In this document: positions 50 to 9,740 of the stretch, piece by piece
Layout: each line of letters begins with the position of its first letter
How positions within the stretch are numbered: position 1 is the first letter of the stretch
Assembly: GCF_028882255.1 (NCBI RefSeq)
Contig: NZ_JARBUY010000004.1
Location: 198,328-262,327 of the forward strand
Source: Maribacter polysaccharolyticus
GTDB taxonomy: Bacteria > Bacteroidota > Bacteroidia > Flavobacteriales > Flavobacteriaceae
Direction of reading: 5' to 3'
Length of the DNA: 64,000 bases
Notes under the pieces: model-generated
What the model saw: the letters and a program-made list of their open reading frames with translations, nothing else
What the model was told of the DNA's origin: nothing
Database searches by the model: none
Translations under genes and position numbers: made by a program

Positions 50-3000
50 TTGGTTTTAAGGTGTCAGTTCTTTAATTTTAAGGATAGTTCACAGGAAAGG
101 ATTGGAATCATTCTACAACGAGATGTTGTGAATTGCTTTCAGTTCTTTAATTTTAAGGATAGTTCACAGGTACCGTGGCCAATTGGTTTACGCTGTCGCC
201 GTTGTGAATTGCTTTCAGTTCTTTAATTTTAAGGATAGTTCACAGGTGGAAGTCTTTGTTAAAAGTAGTCATGATGGTTGTGAATTGCTTTCAGTTCTTT
301 AATTTTAAGGATAGTTCACAGGAAAAGGAGGCTCATTAACGATTGTATATCGGTTGTGAATTGCTTTCAGTTCTTTAATTTTAAGGATAGTTCACAGGAC
401 TTATTTAAAACGGGATATTTCAACCCCGGTTGTGAATTGCTTTCAGTTCTTTAATTTTAAGGATAGTTCACAGGTGCCAAGAAAGAAACCCTTTTGCCAG
501 CTGCGTTGTGAATTGCTTTCAGTTCTTTAATTTTAAGGATAGTTCACAGGAGTAAGTTCGTTGAAGTAGAAAGAGGATAGTTGTGAATTGCTTTCAGTTC
601 TTTAATTTTAAGGATAGTTCACAGGCATTTTAAGCTGATACAATCGACCGTGTGCGTTGTGAATTGCTTTCAGTTCTTTAATTTTAAGGATAGTTCACAG
701 GTCGCGGCAAAAAGATGTAAAAAACGGTTTAGTTGTGAATTGCTTTCAGTTCTTTAATTTTAAGGATAGTTCACAGGTTCGGTTGAGATTTCATTGAAAC
801 GTGATGCGTTGTGAATTGCTTTCAGTTCTTTAATTTTAAGGATAGTTCACAGGCGTATCTAGGTTCAACCCTTCATAATCCCTGTTGTGAATTGCTTTCA
901 GTTCTTTAATTTTAAGGATAGTTCACAGGTCAGATTTACGAAAGGTTGGGAATGGACCCGTTGTGAATTGCTTTCAGTTCTTTAATTTTAAGGATAGTTC
1001 ACAGGTCAGATTACCAACGTAATGAACGGCTTTCAGTTGTGAATTGCTTTCAGTTCTTTAATTTTAAGGATAGTTCACAGGTTTATCGATCCTAGGTTTT
1101 TGATCTGCCCGTTGTGAATTGCTTTCAGTTCTTTAATTTTAAGGATAGTTCACAGGACCCACAACCGCAATTTTTTACTTTGACCGGTTGTGAATTGCTT
1201 TCAGTTCTTTAATTTTAAGGATAGTTCACAGGCGTGCCGGAAACACTTAGAAAAAGCCGATGTTGTGAATTGCTTTCAGTTCTTTAATTTTAAGGATAGT
1301 TCACAGGGGTTCTCAACGATGGCCGTGTTATAAGCCTGTTGTGAATTGCTTTCAGTTCTTTAATTTTAAGGATAGTTCACAGGCAATAAGCTGAATCACT
1401 TGTGTCACGTTCGGTTGTGAATTGCTTTCAGTTCTTTAATTTTAAGGATAGTTCACAGGGGCTGTAAAATTTACACGTTTGCGAGTGATGTTGTGAATTG
1501 CTTTCAGTTCTTTAATTTTAAGGATAGTTCACAGGCCATACTTTAAAACAAAATAACGGGGATCGTTGTGAATTGCTTTCAGTTCTTTAATTTTAAGGAT
1601 AGTTCACAGGAAACGAATATGAAACAGAACTTAAAAAGATGTTGTGAATTGCTTTCAGTTCTTTAATTTTAAGGATAGTTCACAGGGTTATCCGTTGAGG
1701 GTTTCAACCCGATAACGTTGTGAATTGCTTTCAGTTCTTTAATTTTAAGGATAGTTCACAGGATATTCACATTATTGGCTTCCGCATCGAGAGTTGTGAA
1801 TTGCTTTCAGTTCTTTAATTTTAAGGATAGTTCACAGGTAATTCTTCACAGCCCTTCTTTGAAAATTAGTTGTGAATTGCTTTCAGTTCTTTAATTTTAA
1901 GGATAGTTCACAGGTTCATAAATTACCCCGTCGATCGATAACTCGTTGTGAATTGCTTTCAGTTCTTTAATTTTAAGGATAGTTCACAGGGCAGAACCTA
2001 GAGAAGGCGATCCAGGCGGCGTTGTGAATTGCTTTCAGTTCTTTAATTTTAAGGATAGTTCACAGGAGAGGGAGTTTAACCTAAACCCTGACATATGTTG
2101 TGAATTGCTTTCAGTTCTTTAATTTTAAGGATAGTTCACAGGGCTACGGTAAAAGGCTTCAGCGGCCGATCTGTTGTGAATTGCTTTCAGTTCTTTAATT
2201 TTAAGGATAGTTCACAGGGGATATTTTTTTTTTAATGAAGTAGAAAGTGTTGTGAATTGCTTTCAGTTCTTTAATTTTAAGGATAGTTCACAGGTACTTG
2301 TCTTTGGTCGATAATGTCACAGTAGTTGTGAATTGCTTTCAGTTCTTTAATTTTAAGGATAGTTCACAGGTTTTTAGAACGTTTAGTAATGAACTATATG
2401 TTGTGAATTGCTTTCAGTTCTTTAATTTTAAGGATAGTTCACAGGATCTAAAGGTTGATTGGATCGACTATAGAAGTTGTGAATTGCTTTCAGTTCTTTA
2501 ATTTTAAGGATAGTTCACAGGCAGAAGCCATTGGTTGACAAGGTAGCGGCGTTGTGAATTGCTTTCAGTTCTTTAATTTTAAGGATAGTTCACAGGCGAG
2601 GCCCTGAAAAACGGAAGGACGTTGCCGTTGTGAATTGCTTTCAGTTCTTTAATTTTAAGGATAGTTCACAGGTTCGGTTATAGTATCCATGAAAACAAAA
2701 GTGTTGTGAATTGCTTTCAGTTCTTTAATTTTAAGGATAGTTCACAGGAAAAAGCTACGTGCGAAAAAGGCAAAGGCGGTTGTGAATTGCTTTCAGTTCT
2801 TTAATTTTAAGGATAGTTCACAGGGTGGACATTGATAATAATTGGACTATTGAAGTTGTGAATTGCTTTCAGTTCTTTAATTTTAAGGATAGTTCACAGG
2901 TTCACCACAAAAGGAGTGACCTTGGCTTTTGTTGTGAATTGCTTTCAGTTCTTTAATTTTAAGGATAGTTCACAGGACCGTCAAGAAACGCGAATTGGCT

Positions 3001-3204
3001 TTGAAGGTTGTGAATTGCTTTCAGTTCTTTAATTTTAAGGATAGTTCACAGGATATTGGACAGGGTAAGTATTCAACACTCCGTTGTGAATTGCTTTCAG
3101 TTCTTTAATTTTAAGGATAGTTCACAGGTAGTTGGTTGCCATACTCCCATAGTATCGTGTTGTGAATTGCTTTCAGTTCTTTAATTTTAAGGATAGTTCA
3201 CAGG
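50..3204 (+). CRISPR. Type II-C CRISPR array, 41 full repeats plus one decayed repeat
   Basis: The 46-bp repeat begins GTTGTGAATTGCTTTCAG and ends AAGGATAGTTCACAGG. Full copies start at 125, 201, 277, 353, 429, 505, 580, 656 and so on, the last at 3159-3204. The copies I read appear identical. Spacers are 29-30 bp, giving a 75-76 bp period. The copy at 50-95 has lost its first 14 bases and marks the old, distal end, so new spacers probably enter at the cas2-proximal end near 3204. The strand is set by the tracrRNA anti-repeat at 9836-9852, which complements the first part of the repeat as read on the plus strand. The array is therefore read toward cas2, opposite to the cas genes, as described for other II-C loci. 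Repeat length, Cas9 size and absence of csn2 or cas4 agree with a Bacteroidota II-C system. Confidence 0.98.
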
Positions 3205-3230: not shown

Positions 3231-3274
3231 TGTTCTTTAAGACTAGTCGTAGAAATAAAAAAATGTGCCAATTG

Positions 3275-3300
3275 AGGTCTCGACTGCGCTCGACCTGACA
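3275..3300 (+). repeat. Palindromic REP-like element, copy A
   Basis: The unit begins with AGGTC, has the core CGACTGCGCTC, closes with GACCT and ends with GACA. The outer five bases are complementary. It lies in the short leader stretch between the array and cas2. With copy B and a 27-bp linker it forms a doublet that resembles the doublet at 4162-4239 on the far side of cas2. Confidence 0.85.
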
Positions 3301-3327
3301 AATAATGGGATTGCTTCTTTATCAATT

Positions 3328-3353
3328 AGGTCTCGACTGCGCTCGACCTGACA
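3328..3353 (+). repeat. Palindromic REP-like element, copy B
   Basis: Same sequence and orientation as copy A: AGGTC stem, CGACTGCGCTC core, GACCT closing stem. It ends nine bases before the cas2 stop codon region, so it sits directly at the 3' end of cas2. Confidence 0.85.
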
Positions 3354-3362
3354 TTTTGAATG

Positions 3363-3749
<387 letters not shown>

Positions 3750-3815
3750 CTAAAGTCCATGGTTCCCAGCGCTATAGCAATTGAGCCTAAACACATTTAA
3801 ATTGGCTAACATAGG

Positions 3816-3839
3816 TCAGGTCGAGCGCAGTCGAGACCT
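3816..3839 (-). repeat. Palindromic REP-like element, copy C (inverted)
   Basis: This copy is the reverse complement of the others, reading TCAGGTCGAGCGCAGTCGAG then ACCT on the plus strand. It is the only inverted copy. It abuts the 3' end of the GIY-YIG remnant, whose stop codon is at 3843-3845, and so forms an inverted pair with copy D across that remnant. Confidence 0.85.
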
Positions 3840-3842
3840 CAT

Positions 3843-4153
3843 TCAAGGTTTATATTTAAAATGGCTCGCATTCCTGTATTTGGCCAAAATGCACAACAGT
3901 TCTTCATTCCCGTTGGCCAAGCCCCATTTCTTTGTACTACTCTACTTCTTTAGTTGTTTCGCTATGGCAATCGCTGTTCCATTTCATTGAACGTTTCGTG
4001 TCCTATTAAGCGTACCGGTCTTCGTTTATAGGTAAAACCGATTTTGTTTATCCCCAACTGATGCTCATCGAAACGCCTGGCTTTATCGTTCGTAACCCCA
4101 GTGTACACTAGGTTGTCTTTGTATTCCAGCATGCACACTTTATACGTTTTCAT
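3843..4153 (-). pseudogene. GIY-YIG nuclease-domain gene, frameshifted
   Basis: The intact part (4153 down to about 3980) encodes a GIY-YIG fold: YKVCMLEYKDNLVYTGVT, then the catalytic-type Arg in NDKARRFDEHQ, then FTYKRRPVRL and HETFNEMEQ. The open frame then stops early after 63 residues. In other frames the same strand continues as IAIAKQLKK and then as KKWGLANGNEELL through NASHFKYKP, ending at the stop at 3843-3845. This matches the C-terminal part of small UvrC-like GIY-YIG proteins of about 80-100 residues, so at least two frameshifts are present. The remnant lies between cas1 and cas2 and is bounded within 4 and 8 bp by inverted palindromes C and D. Family membership is well supported; its role in the locus is unknown. 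Confidence 0.8.
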
Positions 4154-4161
4154 GGGCTTTT

Positions 4162-4187
4162 AGTTCTCGACTGCGCTCGAACTGACA
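4162..4187 (+). repeat. Palindromic REP-like element, copy D
   Basis: The stem here is AGTTC/GAACT instead of AGGTC/GACCT, so one base pair has changed on both sides while the core CGACTGCGCTC is kept. It lies eight bases upstream of the GIY-YIG remnant start, in inverted orientation to copy C. Confidence 0.85.
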
Positions 4188-4213
4188 AATAATCGGTTGC
4201 TTTTTTAATAATG

Positions 4214-4239
4214 AGGTCTCGACTGCGCTCGACCTGACA
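4214..4239 (+). repeat. Palindromic REP-like element, copy E
   Basis: Stem AGGTC/GACCT with the same core. The linker between D and E (AATAATCGGTTGC then a T run) resembles the linker between A and B, so D-E looks like a second copy of the A-B doublet. Confidence 0.85.
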
Positions 4240-4261: not shown

Positions 4262-4288
4262 AGGACCCGACTGCGCTCGTCCTTACAT
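4262..4288 (+). repeat. Palindromic REP-like element, copy F
   Basis: The stem is AGGAC/GTCCT, a second compensatory variant, with CGACTGCGCTC in the middle. It ends six bases before the cas1 stop codon region at 4295. Confidence 0.8.
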
Positions 4289-4294
4289 TTATGT

Positions 4295-5200
4295 TCATTT
4301 TACGTATTGAAATTCTGGATACAACAACCTACGACCACTACCCAAAAAACATTCATACAGACTATTGGTGGTGCGGCTCATGGCATTCATTAATGGGCTT
4401 TGTTTCCCATCGATCACCACGTCCATCGCCGGTATGCTTAAAAGTTCTGCTTTCAAATTTTGATTCAATTCTTCCAACTGGCACCCCGTTTCCACAATGT
4501 CGTACACCAAGGCATCTACAAAAGGCCTATAGGGCTCCATGATATCATCGGCCAAACAAAAGGCGTTGTACTTATTGCGATGATAAATACCGATAGCGGG
4601 TAATAAGCCACTACTGCATAAGGCCCTTGCGGTTACGGCCCTTAGTATGGCATAACCATAATTCAGTAAATTGTTGGGGGCCATTCCTTTCTGGTTGCGA
4701 CTAAAACCGGCTATTTCAAATAGGTTTTGAAAATAATAAGCCGCAGCATAGGCTTCATGGTTGTCAGTGTCGCCACTTTTAACTTCTTTGGCCCAGCGTT
4801 TTAATTTTAGGGCATTTTTATCCCGTTGTAAAAGGTGTTGCGCCTGATTTTCAATTTTGGCCATTACGGTTTGTTGCCATAATTGTTTTTTAAGGGGTAT
4901 GCTGGCATTCAATTGGTGGCGCATACGCTCGGTCTGTTCGCTATGCCCAACCAAGGGTTGGAAAAACGAACAGGGCAAATGCTGTTTGTCGCAGGTTATG
5001 ACGGCGGTTTTGTTTTGCACCAACTTCATCAACAACCCATTGGTAACCGTAATCTGCGGATCTTCCAACACCACATAGCCCAAGTCCTCAATGGGGATGG
5101 TGGCCTCTTTTTTGCCTTCCTCCGGAAAGTTGACCACCAATTGCTCGTTCTTGGTGCTTAAATAAGCGGGATTACCGAAAAAGAGGGTGCGTTTGATCAT
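4295..5200 (-). CDS. cas1: CRISPR-associated endonuclease Cas1 (type II)
   Basis: This 301-residue protein is the integrase of the spacer acquisition complex. The N-terminal beta domain starts MIKRTLFFGNPAYLS. The alpha-helical catalytic domain carries the conserved metal ligands: Glu in NHEAYAAAYYF, His in GIYHRNKYNAF and Asp in LADDIMEPYRP. The NNLLNYGYAILRA motif is typical. The start codon lies four bases beyond the cas9 stop, so cas9 and cas1 are co-transcribed. Cas2, normally the next gene, is displaced by the palindrome/GIY-YIG insert. Confidence 0.97.
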   Translation of the reverse strand: MIKRTLFFGNPAYLSTKNEQLVVNFPEEGKKEATIPIEDLGYVVLEDPQITVTNGLLMKLVQNKTAVITCDKQHLPCSFFQPLVGHSEQTERMRHQLNASIPLKKQLWQQTVMAKIENQAQHLLQRDKNALKLKRWAKEVKSGDTDNHEAYAAAYYFQNLFEIAGFSRNQKGMAPNNLLNYGYAILRAVTARALCSSGLLPAIGIYHRNKYNAFCLADDIMEPYRPFVDALVYDIVETGCQLEELNQNLKAELLSIPAMDVVIDGKQSPLMNAMSRTTNSLYECFLGSGRRLLYPEFQYVK

Positions 5201-5204
5201 ACTA

Positions 5205-8200
5205 TTAAGCTTTGGTAATATTGCCTAACCTATCTACTTTGAGTTTGATGCATCTTTCTTTTATACTAATGCCTTCCAAACTTGCTGTTTTTACATCAAA
5301 TGAACCTGTTGTTTTTTGCTTCTTCTTATCAAATTTCATGTCGACTTCTTTCGGACAAATGGATTTTGATAATGAATTAGGTGTAAAATAACACGTTACA
5401 CCAGAGAAATCATTTACATTATAAATTCTTTTAAGTTGGACTTTGTTTAAATTATTAAAATCAATTGAACTGATTTTATCAAGCTCATCATCAGTTGGTA
5501 TATAAACGAGGTCTAAAGGTGAAAGTGTCATTTTATAATTTACTGAAACTTCTTTACCTTTAATAACAGCAGTATTACAAATAGGAGCTAAAGTTCTATT
5601 TTCCTTTGGATGATTTGCTACATCTTTCTGATGAATAATTACCATGTCTAAAGGTACCGTTTCATAATATTGTCCAACTTCATTTTTATAAATGTTAAAA
5701 TATAGATTAGGTGAACCCTGTACATATTTCTTTGAATTTATACCTTTAAAACCCAAGGTAAATCGTCCACTTCCTTTTTCGTAAGTACGAACTTTATAAA
5801 TTGGGTGATGAAATTTGCCTTCATTGAATTGAGTAATGTTTTTATTCATGTCTTCAATTCCTTCTGGAGAAAAGGCCAATTCTGGATTGTATTCTTTACT
5901 TTTTAAGTAGTTCTTAAGGATTTTTTGAATACCAGTATCTGTTATTTTACTTATTTTATTTTCAGCCTTTTCTTTAGTCTTTGCGTCTTTAAATAATGTC
6001 GCTAAATCATTTCGTTCTCGCGTGGCGGTTGTTATTTCTCCTTTACCAAGTTTGACCCAAGGTAAATTGACGATACCTGAAACCGTTTCCTCATGCATAG
6101 CCTTCCTTATAGCCCAATTATCCCCTTTGGTTTGCTTTCGTAGCTTTTTAACGGGTTTGCCGTTTTTGTCTAGATTTAAGTTGCCATTTTCATCTTTGTA
6201 TGACCAAAATTTGTTGTTGGCTTTATTGATAATGCGCAAGTTTTGCTTAAAGCTAATCACCGTTTTATCCAATTGATTTTTAGCCTCGGTTGTAAAACCT
6301 TGCCACGGCATTTGGAATGCTTTGGTATAATGGTTGTTTTCGTTTTTAATAAGCAACTTATCACGTAAACCGTAATTTTTATTTTCAGCATTCAAAGCAC
6401 TTAAATAATGACTATGGTTGCGTGTACAGCAAGCAACCACCAAGGCATCCAAAGCGTGATGTCGATGGTCTATTCGCTTCTTGTTAAAGCCTTTGAGCAA
6501 CGCTTCTGGAACAGTTGGGATGGTGTTGCCATTGGTATTGGTTGCGGTGAAGTCATTGGTTTGTGTTAATTGGTCCAAGCGCTCAAATCGTGGCAAGATA
6601 AGTTCGTTCCATTTGTCGTTCAACCCCCAATCGTTTTTAAGTTTTGAGGTTACCGAGCCTGTAACAGGAATCAAGTTTTTTGAAGTCGCTTCTTGCTCGC
6701 CCTCTTCACGAACAATATTACTCAACAAACCTTTTACTAATTTACTAATGTAGCGACTATCGTTCATTTGTCTGTTGATAAAACCTTCAGGAATATCCTC
6801 ACTCAATAGGTTTTTAAGCTTTTGTCGGTTATTTTTGAAGTATTGGTTAACATGGGCTTCATATTCTTCAAGACCTAATAATTTATGTCCATTGATAACA
6901 CTGCCACTTTTCTCTTTTAAATATTCAAATGCTGTTTTATTGTCTTTGTCTTCATTTACGGGACTTTCACAAATGATTTTATTGCTTAAAGAGTTGTCAA
7001 AATACCTGGATTGCGGTATGATATGCTCTATTTGATATTCGTGTGTAAATAATTTTGACAACGGAATGGGCTTTCCGGTATAAGGTGAGATATAGCCTTG
7101 ATCTAACCATAAACGATAGCGCTGTATTTCTTTTTGAGTTGGGTTATTGCTACGTCTAATCTTTGTAATTTCATCTTCACTAACTTTTGAATAATCTGCT
7201 TTTGGGTTTTGATAAACACCTTCTTCAAAGATTTTTAAAATATCTTGTTGGCTTGGTGAATAATCTCGCACGTCGCCTTCAATAGAAGCATCGTTCATTA
7301 AGTCTTTTAAAACTTCCCTGATACGATGGTTGGTGTTTTCATTTTCGCTATTTCTATCGGCTATTCTTTTTCGCTTATCAGCAGGATTTTTCATTTCACG
7401 CCCTAACTCTACGTGAATTTCGTTGAAAAAATTCGGTTTACTCTCACCATGATGTATCCAAATATCACGTACCACGCGCAATGTTTCGGTAACCACTTGC
7501 TCTACAATAGGATTGCGAAGTGAGTGTTGTTTGAAGATTTTTAGGTAGTCATCAATGTCCTGAGGGCTTTTCCAATCCTGGATATCGCCAACCTCTGAGT
7601 GCCTACCATAAACCAAATATGTGGCCTGATAGGTATTTAAGCCAATTAATGGGTTTTTATCTTTAAACGGAACAAAACTTTTAATGAGCTGCTTTCTTAC
7701 ATCATCATCACTGACATTTGCTAAAGCTTCAGCTAAATCTTTAGCCGTGTAATCCACTTTTAAGTCAAGGGCATTAACACGATCCATAATGGTATTTACT
7801 CGCTGTTTAACCTTATCTGAAATTACATTTTCGTTCCAATGTTTACCCCTACGCATTAAAGGCAACAATTTGTGCAATGCCTTTTGGGAATAGCTACCAT
7901 AATCGCTTTTGAAAGGCGGAAATTTGATGAAATTATCTACAAAAGACGTTTGCCCTAAATGATGTTTGTTAGCAAATTTTTCTAAAGCTGATTTATATTG
8001 ATTGATATCAGAAACCGAATAGATAATGTGCCAAAGTTGTTCTATTCTACTAATTAACGGGCTATTTTCGTTTGTGCCAAGTTGTGTCTTTTCATCTAAA
8101 AAAGCGTTTATATCATCAATGCCTTCTACTTTGCTCAAACGCGAAATGAATTGCGCTCTGGTTTCGCCAAATGGATATGTTTTATCTTCTACATAATTCC

Positions 8201-9740
8201 ATCGGTAATGGTCTTTTTCTGATTTATCGATTGACCTTTTATCTATAAAGTATTTTACAAATTGCTTTTGTTCCAGTTCTTTTTTGCTCTGTAAAAAATC
8301 GAATAAGGCGATCCAATCCTCCTCATTCGGCAACAGTTTTTCTGTTACATCGGTTAGCTCGCCTTTATCAGTAGCTACTTTATTATAGATTTTTAAATTT
8401 TGTAACCATTGCCAAATCCTAAACTCTTGAAATAAGGGATGCGATTTTGGGACGGCTTTCACCACCTGTTTAATTTTTTCTTTTTCACCGGTTTCTTTAT
8501 TGATCTTAAAATAAGTTCGTTGCTCTAATTGACACCCTGAAATGTTTGATTTTTGGCTTTTCAAGGGACGTTGATAAAAAATAATATCCTCCATCAACAA
8601 GTACACAAAGTCGCGGTTTTTTATGGCATTTTGGTGTGCTTCATTTCTTGGATACAATTCTTTAACACAAGCTTCGTACAGGGCAGCTGAAAACAGTTCG
8701 GGCTGTAATTCCATTTGTTTGGTTAATATTCTTTTGAATTCATCTTTGTAAAACTTACGCTCAATGGTTTTTACCAGCTTCCCTCTTATTTTTTGTGTTG
8801 GGTTTTCAAGTAAGGTTTCATAAATAAATTCACCTACGGTTTTGTTCGAGCGCTCTATATCCTGTTCGGTTTTAGCTTTTATGGCAGCCCAATCTTTTTC
8901 AGAATCAACAGCTTTATAAGTCCTTTTTATATCTCCATTTTTTAGAGTTTTTATAGTTACAATGAACTCTTTTGTTCGATCAATCCAATCTTCAGTTTTT
9001 ACAACTTGTTTATCATATTTCCAACCATTTTCAAAAAACACATCGAAGAGTGGCTTTCCTTTTATAACTTCACCAGAATCAACGACCTCTTTTACTCTCA
9101 GTTGAACAAAATGTTTGTCTTTGTTATCATCTATTTCTTCGCCTCTCAATTGATAATACCCTCGCTTTTGATTAAAATTCAGAATAATCCATGCCAACTC
9201 TTGTTTGGTCAATGGCTGTAAAAGCGCTTTTTTACGTAAATAATAAAGGGTCCAATCATACGGCACTTTAGTTTCTTTGCCGATAGACTTAATGTAAAAC
9301 AACTCAGGATGAGTCTTTTTAAATTCCCCGAGCATCTCATTAAAGGACGATTTAAAAATAAACTCGTGCTTGCCAGCAGCATTAGGCTCATAATTCAATT
9401 TTACTTCTTTACCATCTTTAAATTGACCTAATCGCTTTTCAAAGTCTATGTGTTCTACATAATGCTGTGGCAAAAAACCAAGTATATGTAATACACGATG
9501 TAAACGCTCTCTGCGTAAATTATCACGTTGGTATAAACGTCTGACGCCCCGATACCCAGTTCTTTCGGCAGTTTGGGAATGTGATTGTCCAGCATCGAAC
9601 TTTCCCAAAATATCCGCGCTCATCGGTATAATCCGAACGCCTAAATCGTTAATTTTACCTTCTTTTTTATCAAATTCATGTTCTATTAAGCTCCACCCAA
9701 TACTATTGGTCCCTAAATCCAAACCTAAAATTCGTTTCAT
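5205..9740 (-). CDS. cas9: Type II-C CRISPR endonuclease Cas9
   Basis: This 1511-residue RNA-guided DNA endonuclease is large for II-C but in the range seen in Bacteroidota. RuvC-I is GLDLGTNSIGW with Asp8. An Arg-rich bridge helix lies at about 60-83 (ERTGYRGVRRLYQRDNLRRE). RuvC-II is IHVELGREMK with Glu778. HNH is YQIEHIIPQSRYFDN with His906. RuvC-III is KRIDHRHHALDALVVA with His1095 and Asp1098. All catalytic residues are present, so the enzyme should be active. The gene is visibly more AT-rich than its chromosomal neighbours, which fits an acquired defence locus. It is transcribed away from the tracrRNA, with about 95 bp between its start and the anti-repeat. Confidence 0.98.
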   Translation of the reverse strand: MKRILGLDLGTNSIGWSLIEHEFDKKEGKINDLGVRIIPMSADILGKFDAGQSHSQTAERTGYRGVRRLYQRDNLRRERLHRVLHILGFLPQHYVEHIDFEKRLGQFKDGKEVKLNYEPNAAGKHEFIFKSSFNEMLGEFKKTHPELFYIKSIGKETKVPYDWTLYYLRKKALLQPLTKQELAWIILNFNQKRGYYQLRGEEIDDNKDKHFVQLRVKEVVDSGEVIKGKPLFDVFFENGWKYDKQVVKTEDWIDRTKEFIVTIKTLKNGDIKRTYKAVDSEKDWAAIKAKTEQDIERSNKTVGEFIYETLLENPTQKIRGKLVKTIERKFYKDEFKRILTKQMELQPELFSAALYEACVKELYPRNEAHQNAIKNRDFVYLLMEDIIFYQRPLKSQKSNISGCQLEQRTYFKINKETGEKEKIKQVVKAVPKSHPLFQEFRIWQWLQNLKIYNKVATDKGELTDVTEKLLPNEEDWIALFDFLQSKKELEQKQFVKYFIDKRSIDKSEKDHYRWNYVEDKTYPFGETRAQFISRLSKVEGIDDINAFLDEKTQLGTNENSPLISRIEQLWHIIYSVSDINQYKSALEKFANKHHLGQTSFVDNFIKFPPFKSDYGSYSQKALHKLLPLMRRGKHWNENVISDKVKQRVNTIMDRVNALDLKVDYTAKDLAEALANVSDDDVRKQLIKSFVPFKDKNPLIGLNTYQATYLVYGRHSEVGDIQDWKSPQDIDDYLKIFKQHSLRNPIVEQVVTETLRVVRDIWIHHGESKPNFFNEIHVELGREMKNPADKRKRIADRNSENENTNHRIREVLKDLMNDASIEGDVRDYSPSQQDILKIFEEGVYQNPKADYSKVSEDEITKIRRSNNPTQKEIQRYRLWLDQGYISPYTGKPIPLSKLFTHEYQIEHIIPQSRYFDNSLSNKIICESPVNEDKDNKTAFEYLKEKSGSVINGHKLLGLEEYEAHVNQYFKNNRQKLKNLLSEDIPEGFINRQMNDSRYISKLVKGLLSNIVREEGEQEATSKNLIPVTGSVTSKLKNDWGLNDKWNELILPRFERLDQLTQTNDFTATNTNGNTIPTVPEALLKGFNKKRIDHRHHALDALVVACCTRNHSHYLSALNAENKNYGLRDKLLIKNENNHYTKAFQMPWQGFTTEAKNQLDKTVISFKQNLRIINKANNKFWSYKDENGNLNLDKNGKPVKKLRKQTKGDNWAIRKAMHEETVSGIVNLPWVKLGKGEITTATRERNDLATLFKDAKTKEKAENKISKITDTGIQKILKNYLKSKEYNPELAFSPEGIEDMNKNITQFNEGKFHHPIYKVRTYEKGSGRFTLGFKGINSKKYVQGSPNLYFNIYKNEVGQYYETVPLDMVIIHQKDVANHPKENRTLAPICNTAVIKGKEVSVNYKMTLSPLDLVYIPTDDELDKISSIDFNNLNKVQLKRIYNVNDFSGVTCYFTPNSLSKSICPKEVDMKFDKKKQKTTGSFDVKTASLEGISIKERCIKLKVDRLGNITKA

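Follow-up and report, generated by a model that had tools for sequence, protein, structure and literature searches.

What is a small nuclease gene, framed by palindromes, doing between two CRISPR adaptation genes that are normally adjacent? The question is raised by a stretch of 64,000 nucleotides from Maribacter polysaccharolyticus (contig NZ_JARBUY010000004.1, positions 198,328 to 262,327 of the forward strand; hereafter the window, whose own numbering is used below), in which the remnant of a GIY-YIG nuclease gene separates cas1 (4295–5200, minus strand) from cas2 (3363–3710, minus strand), both of confirmed identity. Here, we compare this locus with others in the same genome, in the family (Flavobacteriaceae) and in other phyla, and argue, at a probability of roughly 0.7, that it holds the dead copy of a two-part unit, in which a GIY-YIG gene is joined to its own inverted, tagged palindromes and whose copies have spread in a nuclease-linked manner.

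The remnant (3843–4153, minus strand) runs from a start ATG at 4151–4153 to a terminal TGA at 3843–3845 and is a pseudogene. Its 63-codon open part scores 24.4 bits against the Pfam GIY-YIG model, barely above the cut-off of 22.6; from a frameshift near 3970 onwards the remaining part lies in a different frame and carries one more, in-frame stop. In the first-motif region it reads KVCML, as against YVYIL in an intact copy. The upstream end of the unit is formed by palindrome D (4162–4187, plus strand, AGTTCTCGACTGCGCTCGAACTGACA) and its downstream end by palindrome C (3815–3839, minus strand, GTCAGGTCGAGCGCAGTCGAGACCT when read on the plus strand), which is inverted relative to D and is preceded by G, giving the tag GGTC instead of TGTC. 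A sequence-only reading had described this frameshifted gene between inverted palindromes in the cas1–cas2 interval correctly; it also had the 8 bp between palindrome D and the ATG right, whereas the 4 bp that it gave for the other side count as 3 bp between the stop and palindrome C. A 24-base form of the palindrome occurs at five sites in the window at up to three mismatches, against a mean of 0.00 in 100 shuffles; the further copies include palindrome E, upstream of the remnant (4211–4239, plus strand), and the degenerate palindrome F, directly past cas1 (4262–4287, plus strand). The layout is TGTC-stem, gene, stem-GACA, and it closely resembles the CGTC/TGTC class of repetitive extragenic palindromes (REPs). 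The window copy itself is old and dead.

The rest of the genome holds a living counterpart. A 16-base core of the palindrome has 40 sites at up to two mismatches in the 4.76 Mb genome, in which its reversed control has 0, and 21 of the 40 form one 2-kb cluster on contig C11, around an intact GIY-YIG gene of 107 residues. There, an inverted palindrome, 16 bases, the gene and a direct palindrome at the stop codon follow one another as they do in the window. The spacer between metG and tex contains a third copy, which is decayed and is accompanied by its downstream palindrome. Altogether 27 of the 40 core sites are no more than 1.5 kb away from one of the three copies named here (random expectation 0.08). 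The C11 protein scores 63 bits to the GIY-YIG domain, above the curated cut-off. Across ten aligned GIY-YIG proteins Y17, G19, T21, R27 and H31 are invariant and E65 nearly so, and the conserved tyrosine, arginine, histidine and glutamate are presumably the catalytic residues of the fold. The C11 gene has syntenic counterparts in two congeners. The three orthologue pairs have ratios of nonsynonymous to synonymous substitution (dN/dS) of 0.09, 0.16 and 0.20, and the gene is under purifying selection; a fourth copy is more distant, and comparisons with it are saturated in synonymous change. Two further GIY-YIG genes on contig C14 and one on C15 have no window-type palindrome in the stretches read, from which it follows that participation is not universal among GIY-YIG genes. 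Each of these genes adjoins an apparent tRNA gene (judged by eye), and C14 holds a tandem duplication of such a gene (locus L040, 2860–3600), next to an apparent tRNA gene and free of window-type palindromes. Searches of the nucleases against NCBIfam returned no match or only a sub-threshold match to group I intron endonucleases, and PADLOC returned none.

GIY-YIG matches at E ≤ 1e-8 were found in 92 of 199 genomes of the family, and many of the genes are flanked by inverted palindromes with a [C/T]GTC tag. The pairing was quantified with a flank test that involves no predefined motif: for each gene, the 150 bases on its upstream side were compared with the 150 bases on its downstream side and scored by their best inverted match, and placements of identical geometry at other positions in these loci served as control. 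The sample comprised 95 matches (30 returned loci and 65 chosen from the listing), of which three had flanks cut at contig ends and one identical pair was counted twice, giving 94 distinct proteins. At a score of at least 14, a flank repeat was present at 24 of 33 matches of 120 bits or more (controls 0/245), at 10 of 39 between 80 and 120 bits (1/470) and at 5 of 23 below 80 bits (0/253). The looser score of at least 12 gave 24/33 against 0/245, 18/39 against 16/470 and 9/23 against 1/253 in the same order, the middle band being the least clean. Nine top-band matches lack the repeat; four of them (L053, L054, L056 and L058) have two unlike kinds of palindrome, one on each side, and in a fifth (L079) the start of the match lay within the gene. 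The association of palindromes with GIY-YIG genes in relatives, which the sequence-only reading had proposed looking for, was found far above the control placements; since these rarely give flank repeats, chance placement was rejected. Palindromes also occur in close pairs: the 150 core sites listed for the family include 27 such pairs, 21 of which have the polarity of the unit, as expected if they are units minus the gene.

Different nucleases keep company with different palindromes. Three protein subfamilies could be matched to palindrome types, TGTCAGGTCGAG... or TGTCAGCCTGAG... for SF1, TGTCACTTCGAGTG... for SF2 and CGTCATGCTGAAC... for SF3, and the own type lies within 200 bases of 39 of 45 distinct SF1 proteins, 22 of 22 SF2 proteins and 5 of 5 SF3 proteins, while a type belonging to another of the three subfamilies is near only one, one and none of them, respectively; the four motif types (T1–T4) were written after inspection of the loci, so these counts are descriptive. 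The match is visible within single genomes. In the nine genomes with two or more of these subfamilies, the own type accompanies 19 of 20 copies, L079 being the sole copy that lacks it and L114 carrying a second type besides. The SF1 core was found in 32 of 36 genomes with an SF1 gene (assigned by hand, at scores from about 99 bits upwards) versus 53 of 163 without one (Fisher p 4e-10). These results bear on a purely positional explanation, by which GIY-YIG genes would simply occupy spacers that collect palindromes, such as terminators or neutral spacers. Some cas1–cas2 spacers of other genomes that lack a GIY-YIG gene do hold palindromes of other kinds, as that explanation would have it; the scarcity of flank repeats in controls of the same geometry from the same loci speaks against it, and a subfamily-specific match inside one genome is left unexplained, which makes it very unlikely in our view.

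If the palindromes belong to the unit, homology between copies should stop at them, and it does. Among the twelve genomes of the genus, eleven have a GIY-YIG match. Six copies at other loci in the genus (L187, L188, L189, L192, L202 and L205) align to the C11 locus (L039) only from positions 4596–4612 to positions 5001–5004 of that locus, where the upstream TGTC begins at 4611 and 5001 is the last base of the downstream GACA; the shared homology therefore ends at the palindromes, give or take a few bases. L205 additionally matches part of the palindrome array. Occupied and empty versions of the same site were found in three places. The metG–tex spacer was seen in ten of the twelve genomes, in one of which tex was not found. 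It is empty in three (9 bp), occupied by an intact unit in one (486 bp) and by a frameshifted unit in another (503 bp), and contains a palindrome array, fragments or a remnant in four, one of them with a run of N. In the metG tree, five genomes with an occupied or remnant site form one clade and a sixth stands among the empty ones. At this spacer in genome G199 (contig C5, 6645–8589; L188/L227), 144-base fragments of the 5′ part of the unit stand in tandem, separated by palindromes, next to a full copy, an array that is possibly a product of amplification.

The second place is the cas1–cas2 interval. Of 42 family genomes with a cas1 match, the best 30 were surveyed, and a recognisable cas2 was present in 29. 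The two genes are 6–91 nt apart in 24 of these, in line with the earlier statement that they are normally adjacent; three have gaps of 166–280 nt without a GIY-YIG gene, and two contain such a gene, in gaps of 588 nt here and 576 nt in another genus. Occupied intervals are known from M. polysaccharolyticus, a congener (G202) and a member of another genus (G176). The three remnants are 67–77% alike and share 59–63% with the C11 copies. As they are closer to one another than to the C11 copies, they probably represent a single old insertion, or one that was carried along on a transferred cas locus, and are now decaying. Three other cas1–cas2 spacers (L162, L164 and L174) hold single or paired palindromes of other types without a GIY-YIG gene, and the spacer seems to be a permissive landing site.

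The third place lies far outside the family. In Azospirillum lipoferum (L147), a CGTC-bounded GIY-YIG unit splits sufB from sufC. It is missing in five aligned relatives, three of which share 94–95% overall identity in the common parts. On a Shinella plasmid (PSBB067, L153), a different GIY-YIG gene with a different palindrome lies at the sufB–sufC junction, as placed from coordinates and upstream sequence in a record without a gene table there; the two hosts represent two orders of Alphaproteobacteria. Defined ends together with occupied and empty sites, as expected of an autonomous transposable element, are hence found for these units, as the sequence-only reading had anticipated when it asked for occupied and empty sites with sharp boundaries. 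The fold of the nuclease and the existence of occupied and empty alleles could also suggest a classical homing endonuclease that targets the cas1–cas2 spacer. Neither an intron nor an intein is apparent in this spacer, whole palindromes flank the gene on each side where a split target would be expected, and the unit occurs in several unrelated spacers. On these grounds we rejected classical homing, which is the least probable of the explanations considered.

The pairing extends well beyond Bacteroidota. From a plasmid collection with 33 records containing a relative, 14 were picked by organism name and read; a flank repeat is present at 10 of these 14 loci (controls 3/126), all ten belong to Pseudomonadota and nine carry the CGTC tag. 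The loci without a flank repeat are L146, L150, L151 and L152. On the Planktothrix plasmid of L150, the GIY-YIG gene lies between genes for a type IIL restriction enzyme and a DISARM helicase, with GTCATTCTGAG-type repeats close by. When GTDB contigs were scanned with a single Aeromonas protein, 560 confirmed relatives were obtained, the best 80 of which come, by record title, from Pseudomonadota, Bacteroidota, Planctomycetota, Chloroflexota, Nitrospirota and candidate phyla. Three of the 80 were dropped for short flanks, and gene length was set to 264 bases where the match was a little shorter. A tagged hairpin lies within 150 bases of the gene at 76 of the 77 remaining loci, against 241 of 1178 controls, which reach 20% owing to a loose hairpin definition; the inverted flank repeat was found at 35 of 77 loci against 3 of 1178 controls. 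In Neisseria gonorrhoeae (L312), a relative with 33% over 75 residues (E 1e-9 in a protein comparison) has CGTC-type hairpins adjoining its gene. At another locus (L128), the GIY-YIG frame starts with MRHPELVSGS, which resembles a CGTC-type palindrome translated in frame; translation of such repeats may give rise to artefactual protein ends in databases.

Could another enzyme move the palindromes, with the GIY-YIG gene as a passenger? The obvious candidates are REP-associated tyrosine transposases (RAYTs), which belong to the Y1 transposase family. Y1 genes are present in 73 of the 199 family genomes, one of them in this genome, and genomes with a Y1 gene somewhat more often hold at least one core copy (38/73 versus 47/126 of the others, p 0.053), a weak link that falls short of significance. 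Holding five or more core copies has no significant link with Y1 genes (19/73 versus 26/126, p 0.39). At E 0.001, a Y1 match is absent from the two core-richest genomes (106 and 79 copies), no palindrome is listed within roughly 4.5 kb of the only Y1 match in this genome, and it is the GIY-YIG subfamily that predicts the palindrome type. As copy number does not track Y1 genes, movement by a RAYT was rejected, and a role for it or for some other transposase appears very unlikely. Nor is the arrangement that of a REPtron, in which REPs flank the Y1 gene, as the flanked gene here encodes a GIY-YIG protein.

How does the unit relate to known systems? The relevant passages of a survey of the CGTC-tagged REP superfamily (Di Nocera, De Gregorio and Rocco 2013, PMC3733652) describe these repeats, among them Neisseria dRS3, as bearing a CGTC or TGTC tag and forming dimers; in the words of the survey, they ‘apparently lack a dedicated transposase’. 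The window palindromes share with them the tag, a length of 20–40 bp, the many copies and the frequent dimers, and the Neisseria GIY-YIG gene is itself flanked by CGTC repeats; they differ in having a GIY-YIG gene as partner, where those passages report none (PMC3733652), and in an imperfect, bulged and weakly folding stem. The stable stem of 8–9 bp that marks CGTC REPs is found in three other types, those of SF3, of Rhizobiaceae and the Aeromonas/Neisseria-like one, which fold strongly (−6.7 to −10.1 kcal/mol, z −4.3 to −5.4), and is lacking in the window type. Given this weak stem, we call the window repeat similar to CGTC REPs and not a proven member. With RAYT/GTAG REPtrons and REPINs (covered in part by PMC3733652) the unit has in common a repeat-flanked nuclease gene, repeat-specific partners and miniature paired derivatives, while the RAYT is an HUH tyrosine nuclease, the present enzyme has the GIY-YIG fold, and the tags differ. 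UPF0213 proteins (PDB 1zg2 and 1ywl; E about 2e-9) belong to the same small fold family; they are listed as hypothetical proteins, a listing that implies neither activity nor repeats. A literature search by titles and the starts of abstracts turned up no paper linking GIY-YIG proteins with REPs, and the text of RepRanger (2025, PMC12306157) makes no mention of nuclease, transposase or RAYT.

A separate line of work comes closest. Single-domain GIY-YIG nucleases named Ssn, reported first from Neisseria in a 2025 article in Nature Communications, reportedly cut single-stranded DNA at cognate genomic repeats; we assume that the gonococcal protein of L312 is Ssn. If this is correct, the pairing of nuclease and repeat is probably already known, and the earlier statement that no element of this kind has been described was probably too strong. 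What may be new is the CGTC-REP identity of the repeats, the empty sites of palindrome-bounded units and the finding of one such unit splitting a CRISPR operon.

Taken as a mobile unit, the system would work as follows. The nuclease would recognise its own palindrome, for which the single-stranded form is the likeliest substrate, and would cut at or near the tag. Such cuts, made during replication, repair or DNA uptake, could lead to palindromes and close pairs being copied to new intergenic sites and, occasionally, to the whole palindrome-gene-palindrome unit being copied too, in parallel with RAYT genes and GTAG REPs. In an ancestor, the unit would have entered the cas1–cas2 spacer, where it has decayed since. 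The chief competitor gives the enzyme another task: as a site-specific single-strand nuclease it would act at its repeats on incoming or replicating DNA, as Ssn reportedly does in Neisseria, and have no mobilising role, the repeats would regulate the gene or be co-selected with it, and ordinary repeat recombination would spread the unit. A host-serving function of this kind fits the vertical inheritance and purifying selection of the C11 copy, and recombination between repeats could give part of the pattern of units and empty sites. Palindrome-ended units in unrelated intergenic sites, with empty counterparts, exceed what a fixed regulatory pair would produce. We regard this alternative as quite plausible, while leaning against it.

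Several observations weigh against the mobile two-part unit. The first concerns its engine: the earlier proposal of such a unit stands as far as pairing, unit layout and empty sites go, all of which withstood tests capable of refuting them, while movement of palindromes or units by the nuclease is a step that we infer. The intact chromosomal C11 copy has been inherited vertically across three species, and the cas1–cas2 insertion is old, as the divergence of its remnants attests. The interval is empty in G201, the nearest congener by cas1, which requires that the unit was lost there or that the cas locus has a history of its own. No target site duplication could be recognised by eye at the cas1–cas2, sufB–sufC or metG–tex sites, where the flanks have diverged too far for this. 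Weak folding speaks against a simple hairpin model: as single-stranded DNA, the window palindrome reaches −2.4 and −1.8 kcal/mol (z about 0.3) and does not surpass shuffled sequences, nor does the related SF1 type. The specificity has its edges: 22 proteins fall outside SF1–SF3, at most seven of which have any defined palindrome type, and the 53 genomes that hold the core without an SF1 gene include 3 of the 12 richest. Finally, a CGTC or TGTC tag is missing from part of the flank repeats in the band below 80 bits and from the repeat of plasmid locus L142.

The mobile-unit reading can be drawn more broadly. Small GIY-YIG nucleases would then be the missing partner and mobiliser of CGTC/TGTC palindromes, forming a second REP system structurally unrelated to RAYTs and GTAG REPs, in which subfamilies and palindromes co-evolve, units are autonomous and close pairs are their miniature derivatives, across many phyla and with insertions that include CRISPR and iron-sulphur operons; we hold this joint version tentatively, at a little short of even odds. 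CGTC-type palindromes are widespread bacterial repeats whose mobiliser is left open in those passages of the 2013 survey (PMC3733652), and the pairing may reveal the partner of a repeat class believed to have none. With a matched nuclease visible inside single genomes, the question becomes directly testable with an enzyme of about 100 residues and a 26-base substrate. If true, this would be a second, independent case of repeats maintained by a dedicated nuclease, and it would provide a family of small enzymes with gene flanks that reveal their likely targets.

Around the remnant, the remaining features of the locus are those of a II-C type system. On the far side of cas1 lies cas9 (5205–9740, minus strand; identity confirmed). 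Palindrome B (3325–3353, plus strand) adjoins the stop of cas2, palindrome A (3273–3300, plus strand) lies in the interval between cas2 and the CRISPR array, and the array itself (65–3204) comprises at least 41 near-identical repeats of 46 bases with spacers of 29–30 bases.
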